Below, one piece after another: positions 19,742-27,083 of a stretch of DNA of 35,437 nt. The stretch comes from an uncultured delta proteobacterium (lineage in GTDB: Bacteria; Desulfobacterota; WTBG01; CAIYCZ01; CAIRTM01): positions 1-35,437 of the forward strand of contig CAIRTM010000037.1 in assembly GCA_903881505.1 (NCBI GenBank), in the 5' to 3' direction. The notes beneath the pieces are model-generated. The model was not told where the DNA came from, made no database searches, and saw nothing but the letters and a program-made list of their open reading frames with translations. Each line of letters opens with the position of its first letter. Position 1 is the stretch's first letter. Both the position numbers and the translations under genes were made by a program.

Positions 19742-19745
19742 GTCT

Positions 19746-19800
19746 ATGAAGTATATTCATATAAACTGTCTTGTCAAGAGGAAATATGAAAAAGCTTCAT
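19746..19800 (-). promoter_or_regulatory. Left early promoter with two operators (PR/OR-like)
   Basis: Read on the minus strand: -35 TTGACA (19777-19772), 16-nt spacer, -10 TATACT (19755-19750). Two ATGAA-N5-TTCAT palindromes flank it: 19746-19760 covers the -10 and 19786-19800 lies upstream of the -35. Repressor on the first would block the promoter. The same layout recurs at 21536-21590. Confidence 0.85.
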
Positions 19801-19801
19801 A

Positions 19802-19836: not shown

Positions 19837-20442
19837 ATGAGAAAAATCGGCGAGGCTGTAGCGGAAAGGATTAGGCTTTTAGGGCTTATTCGTGCGCATG
19901 TCGCGCGCGAGCTCGGTATGGATGTCGGACAGTTTTACCACTGTCTGACCGGAAAGGTTAACTTTACGCTGGCTCAAGTTGAAAGGCTTTCTGAAATCCT
20001 TGGTGAAAAATACATCACGATCCCTGGAGAGGAGGACAACCTTTCGGTAATTCATGTGCCGGTCTTTAACGGTGGTGCCGGCCAACCGTCACACTGGACC
20101 GACGAAGGCTATCCGGAAGGGCACGCCAGCCAGTATGAAAGTATGCCGGCCGGGTCAGTCGGCAAGCATGCCTTTGGGGTGCGCGTGCATGGCGATTCAA
20201 TGGAGCCCAGTGTAAAGGCTGGCTGGATATGTATTGTCGATCCTGACCGTGAACCAGTCACGGGAAAGATAGTTTTTTATACAAACTGGGACACGGAAGA
20301 GCGCCTTATTAAGCGGCTGCAGCGCACCGATGCCGGCCCGATCCTTTTGAGTGACAACCCGCAATATCCTCCGGTACAGCCGTCCGGGCGGTATAAAATT
20401 TTTCCGGTGGTAAGGGCTTCCATTGACGCAACAGGACTTTAA
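19837..20442 (+). CDS. CI-like phage repressor with S24 self-cleaving domain
   Basis: 201 residues from ATG 19837; in-frame ATGs upstream would fall inside the operator. Residues 1-60 form a helix-turn-helix (HVARELGMDVGQFYHCLTG). The C-terminal S24 domain has VRVHGDSMEP with nucleophile Ser121 and the general base Lys159 (ERLIKRL). The Ala81-Gly82 bond in FNGGAGQ is the likely cleavage site. This predicts RecA-dependent induction. It should bind the four ATGAA-N5-TTCAT sites. The gene starts an operon with the nuclease 16 bp downstream. Confidence 0.9.
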   Translation: MRKIGEAVAERIRLLGLIRAHVARELGMDVGQFYHCLTGKVNFTLAQVERLSEILGEKYITIPGEEDNLSVIHVPVFNGGAGQPSHWTDEGYPEGHASQYESMPAGSVGKHAFGVRVHGDSMEPSVKAGWICIVDPDREPVTGKIVFYTNWDTEERLIKRLQRTDAGPILLSDNPQYPPVQPSGRYKIFPVVRASIDATGL

Positions 20443-20458
20443 AAAACAGGACTGAAAA

Positions 20459-21316
20459 ATGGCGAATATTCCCAAAAAGGTTATTGATCGTTTTGTAAAG
20501 GCTGTCCCAAAATTCCAGAAAGTTCTGCAGATTGCAAAGGATCGGGACATTAACGAATCCGACACGGTCTCTGTTTTAAATGATATTTTTTCAGAGGTGT
20601 TTGGATATGATAAATACCTTGAAATTACCAGCGAGCTCGCGATCCGCGGGACCTACTGCGACCTTGCGATTAAGATAGACGATAAAATACATTTCCTGGC
20701 CGAGGCCAAGGCTGTTGGCATGGACCTTAAAGAGGCCCATGTTAAACAGGCAATCGACTACGGCGCTAACCATGGCGTCCAGTGGGTTATTTTAAGTAAT
20801 GCGATCGAGTGGCGCCTGTATAGAATACGCTTCGAGCAGCCTATTAATTTTGATCTTGTTGTCTCTTTTAAATTCCCTGAGATCAACGCCCGCGAAGAGA
20901 AGTACCAGGACATTCTTTTCCTTTTATCAAAAGAGGGTATAGGGAAAAACGTTAAAGAGGCCCACTATGATAAAGTCCAAAGCGTTAATCGTTATGTGAT
21001 CGGGAACCTGCTGCTCGGAGAGCCCGTTATTACTGTCCTGCGTCGCGAGCTCAAGCGGCTTGCCGATGGCATAAAAATAGAGGCCGGCGAGATTGAGAAT
21101 ATAGTAAGGTCTGACGTTTTAAAGCGTGAAATAGTCGAGGGCGACCAGGCTGAAATCGCCGCGGCAAGGGTTAATAAATTCTACAAAAAAACTGTCAAAC
21201 GTCCGCCTCGCAAACCGGCTGCAGGGCAGGCCGTTGAGACAAAAGAACCAGAACAGCCGACAGTATCTGTGACAGAAAAACTTTTGGGCTCATGCGGCAG
21301 CGAAGACTATAAGTAG
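20459..21316 (+). CDS. Orphan HsdR_N-type PD-(D/E)XK nuclease in the repressor operon
   Basis: 285 residues. The first 130 match the N-terminal nuclease domain of type I restriction HsdR proteins: VLNDIFSEVFGYDKYLEITSEL, TYCDLAIKIDD (Asp68), HFLAEAKAVG (Glu82-x-Lys84) and KQAIDYG (Gln97, Tyr101). The helicase and translocase parts of HsdR are absent. The C-terminal half is charged and ends in a Pro/Glu-rich tail. It lies 16 bp behind the repressor on the same strand, with no terminator between, so it is likely made in lysogens. Phages often carry exclusion genes in that place (lambda rex). The anti-phage role is inference; a host-modulating or recombination role is also possible. Confidence 0.75.
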   Translation: MANIPKKVIDRFVKAVPKFQKVLQIAKDRDINESDTVSVLNDIFSEVFGYDKYLEITSELAIRGTYCDLAIKIDDKIHFLAEAKAVGMDLKEAHVKQAIDYGANHGVQWVILSNAIEWRLYRIRFEQPINFDLVVSFKFPEINAREEKYQDILFLLSKEGIGKNVKEAHYDKVQSVNRYVIGNLLLGEPVITVLRRELKRLADGIKIEAGEIENIVRSDVLKREIVEGDQAEIAAARVNKFYKKTVKRPPRKPAAGQAVETKEPEQPTVSVTEKLLGSCGSEDYK

Positions 21317-21477: not shown

Positions 21478-21535
21478 AGTCGCATCTTGGCTAAAAACCT
21501 TCCGTTTTAAGCGCAATATTTTTTTGTGCCTTGAT

Positions 21536-21590
21536 ATGAAAATAATTCATATTTCCTCTTGACATATCCGATAATATGAATATACTTCAT
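21536..21590 (+). promoter_or_regulatory. Right early promoter with two operators (PL/OL-like)
   Basis: -35 TTGACA (21559-21564), 16-nt spacer, -10 TATACT (21581-21586). Palindromes ATGAAAATAATTCAT (21536-21550) and ATGAATATACTTCAT (21576-21590) are at the same places relative to the promoter as in the left module. It drives the long plus-strand operon. The copies share TTCATATTTCCTCTTGACA and TATGAATATACTTCATA exactly. Confidence 0.85.
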
Positions 21591-21594
21591 AAAT

Positions 21595-22242: not shown

Positions 22243-22472
22243 AAGAAAAATTTGAATTTTGTCCCCGTATCAACAGAATACCCGCGAAAGAAGAAGCCGG
22301 AAGAAAGGTGATAAAGCTCGGCGCGCTGCACGGCCACGCCCTGCACGCAACAGACGACTCGCGGCCCCTGCGCGGACTTGTCCCGGCGGTGATGGGCAAG
22401 AAGGTTGTCTATGTGTCCTGGTATCAGCGCAGGCACGCTATCCCGCAGTTGGCGGCAGAGGTGGTCGCATGA
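22239..22472 (+). CDS. 77-residue early protein, unknown
   Basis: Start at 22239 has AAGGAGG 7 nt upstream, much better than an ATG further upstream in the same frame. The sequence MKEKFEFCPRINRIPAKEEAGR is followed by KVIKLGALHGHALHATDDSRPLRGL and VVYVSWYQRRHAIPQLAAEVV. It looks like a small beta-rich protein. It is linked to its neighbours by ATGA overlaps on both sides. No homology recognised. Confidence 0.5.
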   Translation: MKEKFEFCPRINRIPAKEEAGRKVIKLGALHGHALHATDDSRPLRGLVPAVMGKKVVYVSWYQRRHAIPQLAAEVVA

Positions 22473-22624
22473 AAAGGGCACTCATTACAACGGTAATCGT
22501 TGCAATCATGATTTTGGTGGCGCTGCAGATCACCATCCCGATTATCGACAATGCCCAGGCGAAGTACAGCGCCAAAGACCGGCAGGCATTTTGTTTGCTG
22601 CGCGAACAGAGCGCGCAGCAGTAA
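22469..22624 (+). CDS. 51-residue single-pass membrane protein
   Basis: The ATG at 22469 overlaps the preceding stop (ATGA). The protein is MKRALITTVIVAIMILVALQ followed by ITIPIIDNAQAKYSAKDRQAF and a Gln-rich end. A hydrophobic segment at residues 4-25 with a basic start predicts one membrane anchor or an uncleaved signal with the rest outside. Early phage membrane peptides sometimes cause exclusion or change host division. Nothing specific can be read here. Confidence 0.55.
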   Translation: MKRALITTVIVAIMILVALQITIPIIDNAQAKYSAKDRQAFCLLREQSAQQ

Positions 22625-22650
22625 ATATCAACCAGGAGAAGGAGAAGGGC

Positions 22651-23664
22651 ATGAACGCAATTGCAAACATCGGTCAGAGGGCCGCGGCGATCGTCGCGGG
22701 CGTTAAACAGGAAATTGAACAGGCAAAAAAGGACAAGTGGAATGTGCTTATCTCTGAGGACATCCGGCCGGCATCGGAGATGTTTTTGCCGCACCTGTCA
22801 ATCGTGCGGTTAAGCGCCGATCCTGACGCCGGGGATTTTTACTATCCAACCGACGCTAAGGGTAAAGGAAGAATTACCTATAACGCCATGAAAAAGCTGG
22901 CCGCCGAGGCCGGTATCCAGTGGGTCCCCGAGCAGGAGGGTATTGTCCAGAAGGAAGAGAATTACGTAGCATTCCGCGCTGTCGGCCGCAGGTTCACGAG
23001 CTCCGGGGAGGTCCGGCTGCTGGCCGGTTTTTCAGACAAGGACATGCTGATTAAAGAAGAAGAGCTCAAGGGCGCAGGCAAAACCGAGGCCGCAATGAAA
23101 GCCGAGCTCCGCAAAGAGCGCAACTTTTGGATGCGCAAAGCCGAGTCCGGCGCCCGCGCGCGAGTAATCAAGGGGTTTATTCCTCTTAAGGCCGCATATT
23201 CCCGCGAGGAAATCGAAAAGCCGTTTGTTGTGCTCAGATACATTTTTTCGCCAGATATGCGCGACAGGGTTATTAAAGCGCACATCCTGCAGGCAGCAAC
23301 GAATGCCGTAAGTGGAGTCTTCGGCCCGGCTGCAGGCCACGCAGCCCTGCCGGCAGCCGACAACGTCCAGGAGGCCGACTTCCGCGAGCTGGACCCGACA
23401 GCAGCGCAGCAGATCCCCGAGGCTCCGGATCTGAGCGAGCAGCCCGAGCCGAGCAGCCTTGAGATCGACTTCCAGAACATGCCGGCAGACGAGCAGGTCG
23501 CATGCCTTCGCCGCATGATTAAATCAACAGGATACGACATTGCAAAGCGTCCCGCGCACCTGATGAAACAGGCCGAGCTGTACACGGCAGCCGAGCGCCT
23601 TGAGTTTTTCCGCATTCTCTCGCCGGCTCCAGCGCCAGCAACTCCGACAGCAGTCGGATTCTAA
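22651..23664 (+). CDS. Putative single-strand annealing/recombination protein
   Basis: 337 residues from ATG 22651 with GGAGAAGG upstream. The core reads GDFYYPTDAKGKGRITYNAMKKLAAEAGIQWVPE, then VAFRAVGRRFTSSGEVRLLAG and FWMRKAESGARARVIKGFIPLKAAYSREEIEKPFVVLRYIFSPD. The pattern of a Y-Y-x-x-x-x-x-x-G-K-x-x-I-T strand, then A-E-S-x-A-x-x-R-x-I-K and K-P-F-V-V, is seen in phage proteins placed as RecT/Redbeta-type annealing proteins. It precedes an SbcD/SbcC-like nuclease pair, the expected partner. The C-terminus is Pro/Ala/Glu-rich. Function is an inference. Confidence 0.5.
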   Translation: MNAIANIGQRAAAIVAGVKQEIEQAKKDKWNVLISEDIRPASEMFLPHLSIVRLSADPDAGDFYYPTDAKGKGRITYNAMKKLAAEAGIQWVPEQEGIVQKEENYVAFRAVGRRFTSSGEVRLLAGFSDKDMLIKEEELKGAGKTEAAMKAELRKERNFWMRKAESGARARVIKGFIPLKAAYSREEIEKPFVVLRYIFSPDMRDRVIKAHILQAATNAVSGVFGPAAGHAALPAADNVQEADFRELDPTAAQQIPEAPDLSEQPEPSSLEIDFQNMPADEQVACLRRMIKSTGYDIAKRPAHLMKQAELYTAAERLEFFRILSPAPAPATPTAVGF

Positions 23665-23674
23665 GGAGGCCGTT

Positions 23675-24808
23675 ATGAGAGTATTACACTTCGCAGACGT
23701 GCACGCCGAAGACGGCGCGAAATACCCGGAGATCAAAAAGTGCCTGCTGCATATTGTTGAGCAGGCCGAGAACGCGCGCCCGGAACTGATCGCGGTGCCG
23801 GGTGATATTTTCAACTCCTCAGAAGTCAAACTCGACAGCCGGGCGGCAAAACTGGTGTTCGCGGCGTTCTCCCGGCTGGCATCGGTTGCCCCGGTTGTCG
23901 TGAGTATCGGTACGCCAAGCCACGATGGCAAGGCAGCCGAGGTCCTGCAGCACATCCCGAACATCTACGTTGCCACAACCCCGCAGCAGTTTGACCTGCC
24001 GTGCGCCCTGGTGACCGCAATACCGGCGCCCACGAAGCAGTTCTTGCAGGGCACAGACACCGACATCGCGGCCGCAATGACGCAGATATTTATGGGCTTC
24101 GGCGCGGCCGCAGCCGATCGCGGCGACAAGCCGCACATCATGCTGGGCCACTGGAATGCGGAGGGCACCACAATCAACGGCCAGGATTACATCGGGCATG
24201 AAATCACAATCGGTTACGATGCCATGATGCTGGCCGACCCAGACATTGTTTGCCTCGGGCACATACACTGCCGGCAGCAAATACGAAGGATCGTTTTTTA
24301 CCCCGGCGGCATATACCAGAAAAACTATGGCGAAATAGGCGACAAAGGGGCGTGGATTCACACGTTCAATGGAAGATCCTTGACCGGCAGCCGTTTTGAG
24401 CACACCCCGTGCCGTCGCCTGTTCGTTGACCGGCTGAATTGCTGTGACGGGATAGAGTCGCCAAAAACGGCCGGCTGCGATGGTTGCGAGGTCCGCTGCG
24501 AAATCACCTGCTGGCAAGATATGGCGGGCGCTATCAGCCAAGACCTGTACCGGAAAGTCTATTTCGACGCCGGAGCCGAGTCCGTTGAAGTCCGTCTGAT
24601 CCGTGTTCCCCGGCAGACCGTGCGCAACGACCTTGTTCTGAAAGCCCATAGCCTGCGCGAGAAGCTCGTGGCCATGGCGGAGCTGCGCGGAGAGACGGTC
24701 CCGAGCGGCATCCTTTTAAAGGCCGACGCGCTGGAAGCGCACAGCGCCGACGAAATCATAAACAATATCACCGGGAGGGCAGCCCACAATGAAAATAAAG
24801 CAGCTTAA
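23675..24808 (+). CDS. SbcD/Mre11-like nuclease subunit
   Basis: 377 residues from ATG 23675 (AAGGAGG upstream). Calcineurin-like motifs in order: FADVHAED (Asp8, His10), VPGDIFN (Asp44), IGTPSHDG (His83-Asp84), MLGHWN (His159) and CLGHIHC (His196, His198). The usual GNHD motif reads P-S-H-D, but His and Asp are kept, so metal binding looks intact. The C-terminus is Cys-rich around residues 255-285. It forms a complex with the SbcC-like protein, with which it overlaps by 20 bp. The phage complex would trim or cut DNA ends for recombination-dependent replication. Confidence 0.85.
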   Translation: MRVLHFADVHAEDGAKYPEIKKCLLHIVEQAENARPELIAVPGDIFNSSEVKLDSRAAKLVFAAFSRLASVAPVVVSIGTPSHDGKAAEVLQHIPNIYVATTPQQFDLPCALVTAIPAPTKQFLQGTDTDIAAAMTQIFMGFGAAAADRGDKPHIMLGHWNAEGTTINGQDYIGHEITIGYDAMMLADPDIVCLGHIHCRQQIRRIVFYPGGIYQKNYGEIGDKGAWIHTFNGRSLTGSRFEHTPCRRLFVDRLNCCDGIESPKTAGCDGCEVRCEITCWQDMAGAISQDLYRKVYFDAGAESVEVRLIRVPRQTVRNDLVLKAHSLREKLVAMAELRGETVPSGILLKADALEAHSADEIINNITGRAAHNENKAA

Positions 24809-27083
24809 AGCAAGAGGTTTCTTGGGTTTCAAGCGCGGGCTCGGGCAGGATGAAGTCTGCTGCGACCTGTCGGGCCTGTCCGGGCTGGTGGCGATATGCG
24901 GCGAAAACGGCCGTGGTAAAACCACGTTTCTGGAACTGTTGACGCCCTTCCGTTCTTTTGCCAGCCGGTCCGGCGCACTGAAAAACCATGTGTTTCTGCG
25001 CGATTCTTTCAAGGAACTAACCTTCGACCATGCCGGGCATGAGTACCGCACGATGGTTAAGATTGATGCCGAGTCTGATAAATCAGAGGGCTTTATCTGG
25101 AGAGACGGCAAAAGCCTTGTTTCCGGTAAAGCCCGGGAATACGACAAAAAGATCGTTGAATTGTTCGGCAGCCCTGAGCTGTTTTTCTCAAGCGTGTTCT
25201 GCGCACAGAACAGCGCGAAACTGTCCGACATGACCGTCGGCGAGATCAAGGGGCTGTTTGCTGAGTTCCTGCAACTGGATAAGCTGGCAGGTTATGAGCA
25301 GGCCGCCAAGCAGGCCGGGCAGGCGGTTTTGACGCTGGCCGAAGCCAAGTCCCGCGAGATCGACCGGTTTTCTGGTTGCGCAGACATTGACGAAATTCAG
25401 CAGGAAATAGGCGAGCGCGAACTGCAGGCCGCCGCAAACACGGCGGAGATATCGCAGAACGCGCAGCTTCTCGCCGCAGCGCAGAGAGACCTTGCCGACG
25501 CGCAGAAGGCGGAAGCGCAGAACGCCGTTGTAATGGAAAAGGCGGCAGGGATTCGGCGCGAGACCAGTGCCTCGGTCGAGCGCTGGTGGCAGTACAAAAA
25601 CGCAACAGAAAAAGCTCTGCAGGACATGCGCGCCCAGTGCGCGGCAGAAATGGCGCAACTTGAAAAGGTTCAGGCACTGGCCGGAGACAATACAGACTTT
25701 GACGCGCTGTCCGTTGAGAAATCGCGCATCCAGACCGAGCAGGCCGAGAGGGACAGGCAGTTGGCCGAGATCGACACGCGCCTGCATGACGTGAGCGTGG
25801 CGGTCCTCGAAACAGAAAAACAACTGAACGCCCAAAAGCAGATCATGCAGGCAGTCAAAAACGACACCGAGCATGCGCGCCTGACGGCCGAGGCCGAAGC
25901 CTGTAAACGCAGCATGGCGGTACTTGAGAAGCGCAGCGCGATATGTAACGACCCCACCTGCGAGCTGATCGCCGCAGCGGTCCATTCTGCAAAGCGGTTC
26001 GATGAACTGCAGGGCCTTATCGCTGAAATTGAGCACAAAAATGACGCTGTTTTCGACCAGGCAAAGGCCGAGGCCGAACGGCTGCAGGCAGTGCTCACGG
26101 AAAAAGAAAATGCCTATCTGGCAGCCAAGGCCGACAAGCAGGCCGCCGGTATGACTTCCTCGGCTGCTGTTCTGCGCTTGCGCGAGATCGACGTCCAGCT
26201 GGCGCGCCAGGCAGAAGTAGCTGCCGCCCGCGAGCGCGTATCCGGAATTGAAAAGCGGGTTGCCGAAATCAAGGCGGCTGGCATTGCGAAGCGGTCAGAA
26301 CTCGAGCAGCGCGAAAAAACGCATAACGAGGAAATGACGCGACTGGATGAACTGGTGCAGGAAATTGAAGCACAGATCGACACGGCAGCGCCCGAGGGCG
26401 TACCTGCATCCCAGCGCCGGATCGAGACGCTGCAGACCGCGCAGTCTTTCGCACAGAAAAAAGCGGCAGACATCCAGGCGGCGCTGGCAACGGCGCGCGC
26501 GCGGCTGGAAAGTGCAAAGGCCGACATGGCCAAGGTTGACGCGCTCCGGGCCGAGCTTGAGGGTCTGAAAGCCGAGGCGGCAGAGTGGAAGTATTTGCAG
26601 GACGCATGCGGCAAGAACGGCCTGCAGGCGCTTGAGATCGACGGCACGGCCCCTGCCATCACCGAGTATGCAAACGCGATACTGCGGGCTACCTACGGCC
26701 CGGCTTTCTCGGTCCGCATCAGCACGCAGGACCCGGAGACCGGCAAGGAAACCTTCGACATTATTGTGATCGCCGACGACGGCACTGAGATCCTGCTGGA
26801 GAACCTGAGCGGCGGCCAGCGCGTTTGGATTCTCAAGGCGCTGCGCCTGGCCATGACGCTGATAAGCAAGGAGAAATCGGAGCACGACTTCCGGACCGCG
26901 TTTGGTGACGAAGAGGACGGGGCATTGGACAGCGAGAAGGCTCGCGCGTTCGTGGATATGTACCGGCAGTTTATGAAGTCTGGCGGCTTTGACGCCTTTT
27001 TCTACATCAGCCACCGGCCGGAGTGTGTTGCAATGGCCGACCACGTTATTGAACTGACTGAATCAGGAATAACTATTAACTGA
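24789..27083 (+). CDS. SbcC/Rad50-like ATPase subunit
   Basis: 764 residues. Walker A GENGRGKT (38-45) is at the N-terminus. A long heptad-rich region follows, then CNDPTC (386-391) in the middle of the coiled coil, where the zinc hook lies, then a second coiled-coil arm. The C-terminal ATPase lobe has ENLSGGQRVW (ABC signature) and FGDEEDGALD (Walker B and D-loop). The hook is C-x4-C rather than the usual C-x2-C. The whole is shorter than cellular SbcC (about 1000), as usual for phage versions. Confidence 0.9.
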   Translation: MKIKQLKARGFLGFKRGLGQDEVCCDLSGLSGLVAICGENGRGKTTFLELLTPFRSFASRSGALKNHVFLRDSFKELTFDHAGHEYRTMVKIDAESDKSEGFIWRDGKSLVSGKAREYDKKIVELFGSPELFFSSVFCAQNSAKLSDMTVGEIKGLFAEFLQLDKLAGYEQAAKQAGQAVLTLAEAKSREIDRFSGCADIDEIQQEIGERELQAAANTAEISQNAQLLAAAQRDLADAQKAEAQNAVVMEKAAGIRRETSASVERWWQYKNATEKALQDMRAQCAAEMAQLEKVQALAGDNTDFDALSVEKSRIQTEQAERDRQLAEIDTRLHDVSVAVLETEKQLNAQKQIMQAVKNDTEHARLTAEAEACKRSMAVLEKRSAICNDPTCELIAAAVHSAKRFDELQGLIAEIEHKNDAVFDQAKAEAERLQAVLTEKENAYLAAKADKQAAGMTSSAAVLRLREIDVQLARQAEVAAARERVSGIEKRVAEIKAAGIAKRSELEQREKTHNEEMTRLDELVQEIEAQIDTAAPEGVPASQRRIETLQTAQSFAQKKAADIQAALATARARLESAKADMAKVDALRAELEGLKAEAAEWKYLQDACGKNGLQALEIDGTAPAITEYANAILRATYGPAFSVRISTQDPETGKETFDIIVIADDGTEILLENLSGGQRVWILKALRLAMTLISKEKSEHDFRTAFGDEEDGALDSEKARAFVDMYRQFMKSGGFDAFFYISHRPECVAMADHVIELTESGITIN

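Follow-up and report, generated by a model that had tools for sequence, protein, structure and literature searches.

A predicted PD-(D/E)XK nuclease gene behind the repressor of a temperate myophage: a candidate exclusion gene

The locus and its setting

The DNA analysed here, which we call the window, is one entire contig of 35,437 bases from an assembly of 149 contigs (3.16 Mb). Genes for terminase, portal, major head, tail sheath and tape-measure proteins point leftward, and genes for SbcC/SbcD-like proteins, a helicase and an integrase point rightward. The window is a temperate contractile-tailed phage (myophage) or prophage that spans the contig. The contig shows no exact direct repeat at its ends, and the completeness of the phage and its true host are therefore not proven. 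The subject of this report is a nuclease gene located 10 kb from the integrase gene and directly behind a CI/LexA-like repressor gene (Table 1). SbcD-like and SbcC-like genes occupy positions 23600-27083 in the rightward operon of the phage, and a scan for relatives of positions 22405-23664 found none.

Table 1. Features of the repressor-nuclease region (window coordinates)
Feature	Position	Strand	Basis or remark
Left operator 1, perfect TATGAA-N5-TTCATA palindrome	19745..19761	.	
Leftward promoter-like TTGACA-16-TATACT, overlaps left operator 1	19750..19777	-	11/12 consensus positions; consensus match only
Left operator 2, perfect palindrome, 40 bp from left operator 1	19785..19801	.	
CI/LexA-like repressor gene (HTH + Peptidase_S24)	19837..20442	+	Pfam S24 E 8.9e-18; phrog_4 (transcriptional repressor) E 6e-24
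Nuclease gene, 285 aa, phrog_17239 family	20459..21316	+	ORF, ATG start
PD-(D/E)XK nuclease domain, about residues 1-140	20459..20878	+	AlphaFold, VIA-align, conservation
Catalytic residues	D68 at 20660, E82 at 20702, K84 at 20708, Q97 at 20747, Y101 at 20759		
Conserved C-terminal helical domain, about residues 141-247	20879..21199	+	Predicted structure; without convincing PDB match
Right operator 1, perfect TATGAA-N5-TTCATA palindrome	21535..21551	.	
Rightward promoter-like TTGACA-16-TATACT, overlaps right operator 2	21559..21586	+	Mirror of left unit
Right operator 2, perfect palindrome, 40 bp from right operator 1	21575..21591	.	

A preliminary description of this DNA had placed the nuclease ORF 16 bp behind a CI-like repressor, with neither a terminator nor a promoter in between. 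The ORF and the 16-bp gap are present as described, and the repressor is of the S24/LexA type. The gap contains no promoter-like or terminator-like site on the + strand, and the junction of the two genes folds no better than shuffled sequences (z -0.89). We also found no inverted repeat where the nuclease gene begins and no + strand terminator downstream of it.

Perfect TATGAA-N5-TTCATA palindromes occur four times across the entire assembly, and all four copies flank the repressor-nuclease cassette. Each pair of these candidate operators, which the repressor probably binds, encloses or overlaps an outward promoter-like site, and the left and right operator/promoter units align as mutual reverse complements. 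The region between the units holds the rightward repressor and nuclease genes and, apart from these, nothing but small ORFs that may not be genes. This layout corresponds to that of the lambda immunity region, with the nuclease occupying the place of rexAB. A repressor-nuclease cassette bounded, in lambda-like fashion, by mirror-image operator/promoter units is a new observation. The rexAB-like position proposed in the preliminary description is thus strongly supported, both by the mirrored units and by relatives in unrelated phages that are likewise placed. To our knowledge, the P2 exclusion genes old, tin and fun do not follow the P2 repressor, and the comparison with P2 in the preliminary description looks loose in this respect.

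Sequence and predicted structure of the nuclease

The nuclease is assigned to phrog_17239 with an E-value of 8.2e-83. Its match to Pfam HSDR_N_2 (E 3.1e-5) scores 24.4 bits, 0.6 bits below the 25-bit cut-off, and all 76 members of our family alignment (A4) match the same model at E<=0.01. The catalytic D...ExK residues and a motif formed by Q97 and Y101, presumably the one named QxxxY, are present in the order found in HsdR_N-type PD-(D/E)XK nucleases and at the positions that had been given for them. Seven residues (E33, E59, D68, E82, K84, Q97 and Y101) are kept in 115/115 aligned sequences, a conservation that is partly built in, as one search pattern contained E33 and T36 and the other Y101 (in the viral scan, also Q97), whereas D68, E82 and K84 were absent from every pattern of the alignment scans.

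An AlphaFold model based on a 76-sequence alignment (mean pLDDT 92, pTM 0.79) predicts a restriction-endonuclease-like fold, for which the best VIA-align matches of the nuclease core are the type IIG enzyme BpuSI (Z 12.2, 3.6 A over 144 residues), DrdV (Z 11.7, 2.8 A over 131 residues) and an HsdR fragment (Z 11.5, 3.7 A over 120 residues). Foldseek E-values for the model are weaker, the best being 6.2e-3. Hjc (Z 6.3) and NucC (Z up to 6.7) stand lower in the structure list. Sequence and model together bear out the HsdR_N-type domain that had been proposed.

Towards its C-terminus the model has a helical domain followed by a tail of low confidence. Modelled separately, the C-terminal 112 residues are entirely helical (pLDDT 86), and comparison with PDB structures gave no convincing match (best Z 3.2), by which a new fold is not shown. 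The preliminary description had asked whether this half matches a known target-recognition module; it matched none in the searches run, and is instead a conserved helical domain. The expectation that it lacks a helicase held, as no helicase domain was found in the protein by Pfam, PHROG, NCBIfam and PADLOC scans or in the AlphaFold model. Likewise, the 285-aa length, the Pfam and NCBIfam scans and the model gave no sign of a methyltransferase or of a specificity or target-recognition domain, and no modified-base-reading domain is recognisable that would point to a type IV enzyme, a kind that cuts modified DNA only.

Searches of PADLOC (no match), NCBIfam and PDB sequences assigned no function to the window protein. 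Among the 76 family members, MmeI_N matches 10, PADLOC models of type II methyltransferases match 26 and those of type IIG enzymes match nine; we take these PADLOC matches to fall on the nuclease part of fused enzymes.

In five of seven close pairs of relatives, dN/dS is 0.012-0.060 (the other two pairs have no usable dS), which shows purifying selection in these relatives. Given the predicted fold, the invariant residues and the low dN/dS, the window protein is very likely an active nuclease, and the alternative that it uses a dead nuclease fold appears unlikely. The preliminary description, which had judged the residues complete and activity plausible, agrees with this assessment.

Relatives and their placement behind repressors

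A scan of viral contigs with an alignment (A1) retrieved 30 loci, whereas the single protein retrieved nothing; from a genome scan, the best 80 of 312 relatives were kept. The phage collection has one record with a homologue, Thermus phage Riverbug, and plasmids have seven, Leptospira plasmids being among the carriers. After removal of a 117-aa fragment (L102), 109 of 110 loci formed 77 clusters, 18 viral and 59 chromosomal; L061 and L096 were excluded from A4. Occurrence is sporadic, with a homologue in 5/98 genomes of the relatives search, the window's own genome counted. None is present in 80 loci with TerL relatives or 30 loci with CI relatives, and the four TerL loci inspected have different architectures adjoining TerL. 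Homologues in L068 and L120 belong to records titled as archaeal MAGs (Methanothrix and Methanoperedens), where binning errors are possible.

A repressor-like gene with HTH and/or S24 domains lies directly upstream of the nuclease, on the same strand, in nine of the 18 viral clusters (L010, L018, L025, L026, L028, L029, L036, L038 and, with sub-threshold Pfam scores, L037). Among chromosomal clusters, which derive from the best 80 of 312 relatives, this is so in four of 59 (L049, L058, L059 and L075), the other 55 having no repressor directly upstream. L013 and L031 have a repressor-like gene one gene further upstream. In the cultured phage Riverbug, 4 bp separate the end of a LexA-like gene from the nuclease homologue.

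A repressor within 150 bp upstream was found for 6/17 nucleases against 9/253 other genes in viral loci (one-sided Fisher p 9e-5) and for 4/55 against 4/800 in chromosomal loci from the best 80 of 312 (p 9e-4), figures that are inflated because some of the loci tested also went into the local repressor HMMs, and that are to be read with viral contigs being repressor-rich beforehand and genes being called by a simple greedy ORF rule. The phrog_17239 membership, the residues common to all 115 sequences and the recurrence of the repressor linkage in other loci show the preliminary observation to be more than chance.

On a quick family tree that carries long-branch warnings, 17/80 rows are repressor-linked and 11 changes are needed to account for them, at least three being forced by starred branches. 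Shuffled labels need 15.7 changes on average, and one of 500 shuffles was as low as 11. The repressor-linked label is therefore clustered on the tree, yet not of single origin.

Mirrored operators were searched for in 22 repressor-linked loci, 21 of them scorable (L029 ran off its contig), and are clear only in the window; a signal in L057 is marginal (3/60 shuffles). Two groups of loci show that phages switch DNA-binding specificity while retaining the S24 domain and the nuclease. Within L023, L024 and L025, the nucleases are 92-95% identical and the S24 parts of the repressors 71-86%, but the N-terminal parts only 21-37%. Between L057 and the L055/L058 pair, the nucleases share 88-90% identity and the repressors 95-97% over most of their length, but only 38-43% in the DNA-binding part.

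Other neighbours of the nuclease also recur. Six Leptospira-type contigs (L011, L012, L014, L015, L016 and L035) have a conserved 70-aa ORF that ends 11-18 bp upstream of it. An ion-channel gene adjoins it in 4/59 chromosomal clusters, again from the best 80 of 312 relatives: Ion_trans genes are upstream in L044/L045 (8-bp overlap) and L072 and downstream in L049, and a Castor/Pollux channel gene is downstream in L103 (4-bp overlap). These channel neighbours are scattered on the tree (4 changes) and recall the RexA-RexB pairing. According to a home-made screen for export signals, the gene after the nuclease is exported or lipoprotein-like in 7/18 viral clusters (L011, L013, L025, L027, L030, L033 and L036) compared with 119/1053 other genes in all loci; L002:8887-9603 is a further case, and the Riverbug annotation has a periplasmic protein downstream of the homologue. 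Perhaps these genes encode exclusion lipoproteins.

A test for defence islands around chromosomal relatives was negative. PADLOC families numbered 74 near them and 82 among genes at least 4 kb away, in a random 110 of 187 near proteins and in 109 of 205 far proteins (after one N-base drop), with families named for the first 25 of each set. Our literature search, which had subscription journals mostly outside its scope, found no experimental study of the nuclease family. In the available part of PMC8432527, an HsdR_N domain is fused to HsdM and not free-standing, and the available part of PMC8713573 describes a Campylobacter HsdR_N protein in which a phage-sensitive strain and a phage-resistant one differ.

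Possible functions

The layout of the region predicts expression of the nuclease in the lysogenic state. We consider it reasonably likely that this temperate myophage uses the gene to make an exclusion (anti-superinfection) nuclease in the lysogen, from the slot that RexAB and BstA occupy elsewhere. As long as the prophage stays silent, the nuclease would be co-transcribed with the repressor from the repressor's own promoter, and the two outward promoters that flank the immunity region would both be shut by the repressor. Upon induction the joint transcript would fall, so that replication of the phage itself would suffer less. DNA would be cut by the N-terminal domain through metal-dependent PD-(D/E)XK chemistry. 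Because the protein has neither a methyltransferase nor a motor, we propose that it is activated through its C-terminal helical domain, which might sense a DNA structure, a modification or a protein of the incoming phage. The outcome would be destruction of the invading DNA or an aborted infection. This reading is favoured by the operator-bounded cassette, the predicted fold with its intact residues, the recurrent placement behind repressors, the exchange of repressor halves next to a retained nuclease and the sporadic occurrence of the family. Against it stand the negative defence-island test, the lack of a PADLOC match for the window protein, the 55/59 chromosomal clusters that have no repressor directly upstream, and mirrored operators that are clear in just one of 21 scored loci. 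A nuclease in a prophage without a methyltransferase raises the question of how the DNA of the host and of the phage itself is spared, presumably by some form of self-protection.

A broader proposal is possible, and we hold it more tentatively: phrog_17239 may be a widespread single-gene defence family whose C-terminal helical domain is a new kind of infection sensor, which has been captured repeatedly behind unrelated repressors and which in some chromosomes is paired with a channel in the manner of Rex.

The presence of relatives on Leptospira plasmids would suit a nuclease of DNA maintenance or repair that aids the persistence of prophages or plasmids through recombination, stabilisation or post-segregational killing and not through defence. 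So would the fold, which PD-(D/E)XK repair nucleases and Holliday resolvases have in common with it at lower Z. The nuclease domains of HsdR and type IIG enzymes are much closer, however, with Z 11.5-12.2 compared with 6.3 for Hjc. Together with the sporadic occurrence of the family, this makes such a role unlikely.

A lysogeny modulator is a further reading, suggested by the place next to the repressor gene: the protein would bind DNA as a partner of the repressor and tilt the choice between lysis and lysogeny, as is reported for lambda RexA, and would cleave DNA secondarily or not at all. We regard this as quite unlikely. The full catalytic set is retained in every aligned sequence, and most chromosomal relatives have no adjoining repressor. 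Moreover, the DNA-binding half of the repressor is swapped while the nuclease stays, which argues that the nuclease is not tied to a single operator specificity.

The HsdR_N-type domain also brings to mind a loose nuclease subunit that serves a type I system (HsdM/HsdS) of the host. Methylase_S (PF01420, HsdS) has no match in the assembly, which is 96.8% complete, whereas the same search was positive in 9/14 control genomes. The only other HSDR_N match in the assembly is a 984-aa ORF that by eye is type IIG-like; hhalign of A4 against it gives an E-value of 0.0012 over the nuclease motifs, although the probability is just 19.6%. It is therefore very improbable that the nuclease is on loan to a type I system of the host; in addition, the protein has no helicase and the homologues whose neighbours were looked at have no adjoining HsdM or HsdS. 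Finally, a neutral passenger of no use to the phage, which the scatter of the repressor-linked state over the tree might suggest, can hardly be reconciled with the low dN/dS of relatives, the catalytic invariance and the enriched placement behind repressors, and we give it almost no credence.

The exclusion nuclease that we favour would represent a candidate nuclease family, with members across many bacterial phyla, at the place where temperate phages classically keep exclusion genes. As the plaque-forming phage Riverbug (of Thermus thermophilus HB8) has a homologue in the same slot, the idea is directly testable.

Comparison with known systems

A defence role for genes in the equivalent slot of Riverbug is already in print: the available part of PMC11437467 proposes that the LexA-integrase slot of Thermus phages, Riverbug included, holds horizontally moving defence genes, and calls the Riverbug gene a homologue of type IIL restriction-modification enzymes. 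That gene (gene 55, XKB90104.1) is 40% identical to the window protein over 91% of the latter and lies directly behind the LexA-like gene. However, a gene for a periplasmic protein and then the integrase come next in Riverbug, where the window has a mirrored operator unit.

With type IIG/IIL enzymes such as BpuSI, DrdV and MmeI, and with HsdR, the window protein shares the N-terminal nuclease fold (Z 11.5-12.2, rmsd 2.8-3.7 A over 120-144 residues). Unlike the type IIG/IIL enzymes it has no fused methyltransferase or target-recognition domain, and unlike a type I subunit it has no helicase or translocase domain and no partner HsdM or HsdS; it carries its own helical C-terminal domain instead.

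Lambda RexAB and RexABpp of P. putida are located behind the repressor and inside the immunity region, as described in the available part of PMC12894663, and the window nuclease has the same slot. RexA is a DNA-binding sensor and RexB an ion channel, whereas the window cassette has one nuclease gene and no channel gene. BstA of prophage BTP1 is expressed in lysogens, lies directly downstream of cI and recurs behind repressors in diverse prophages (PMC8585504, available part). BstA belongs to another protein family and has the self-immunity element aba, of which none was identified in the window, but its slot and its recurrent placement are those of the window nuclease, which is found, like repressor-linked exclusion genes in general, directly downstream of and co-directional with a prophage repressor.
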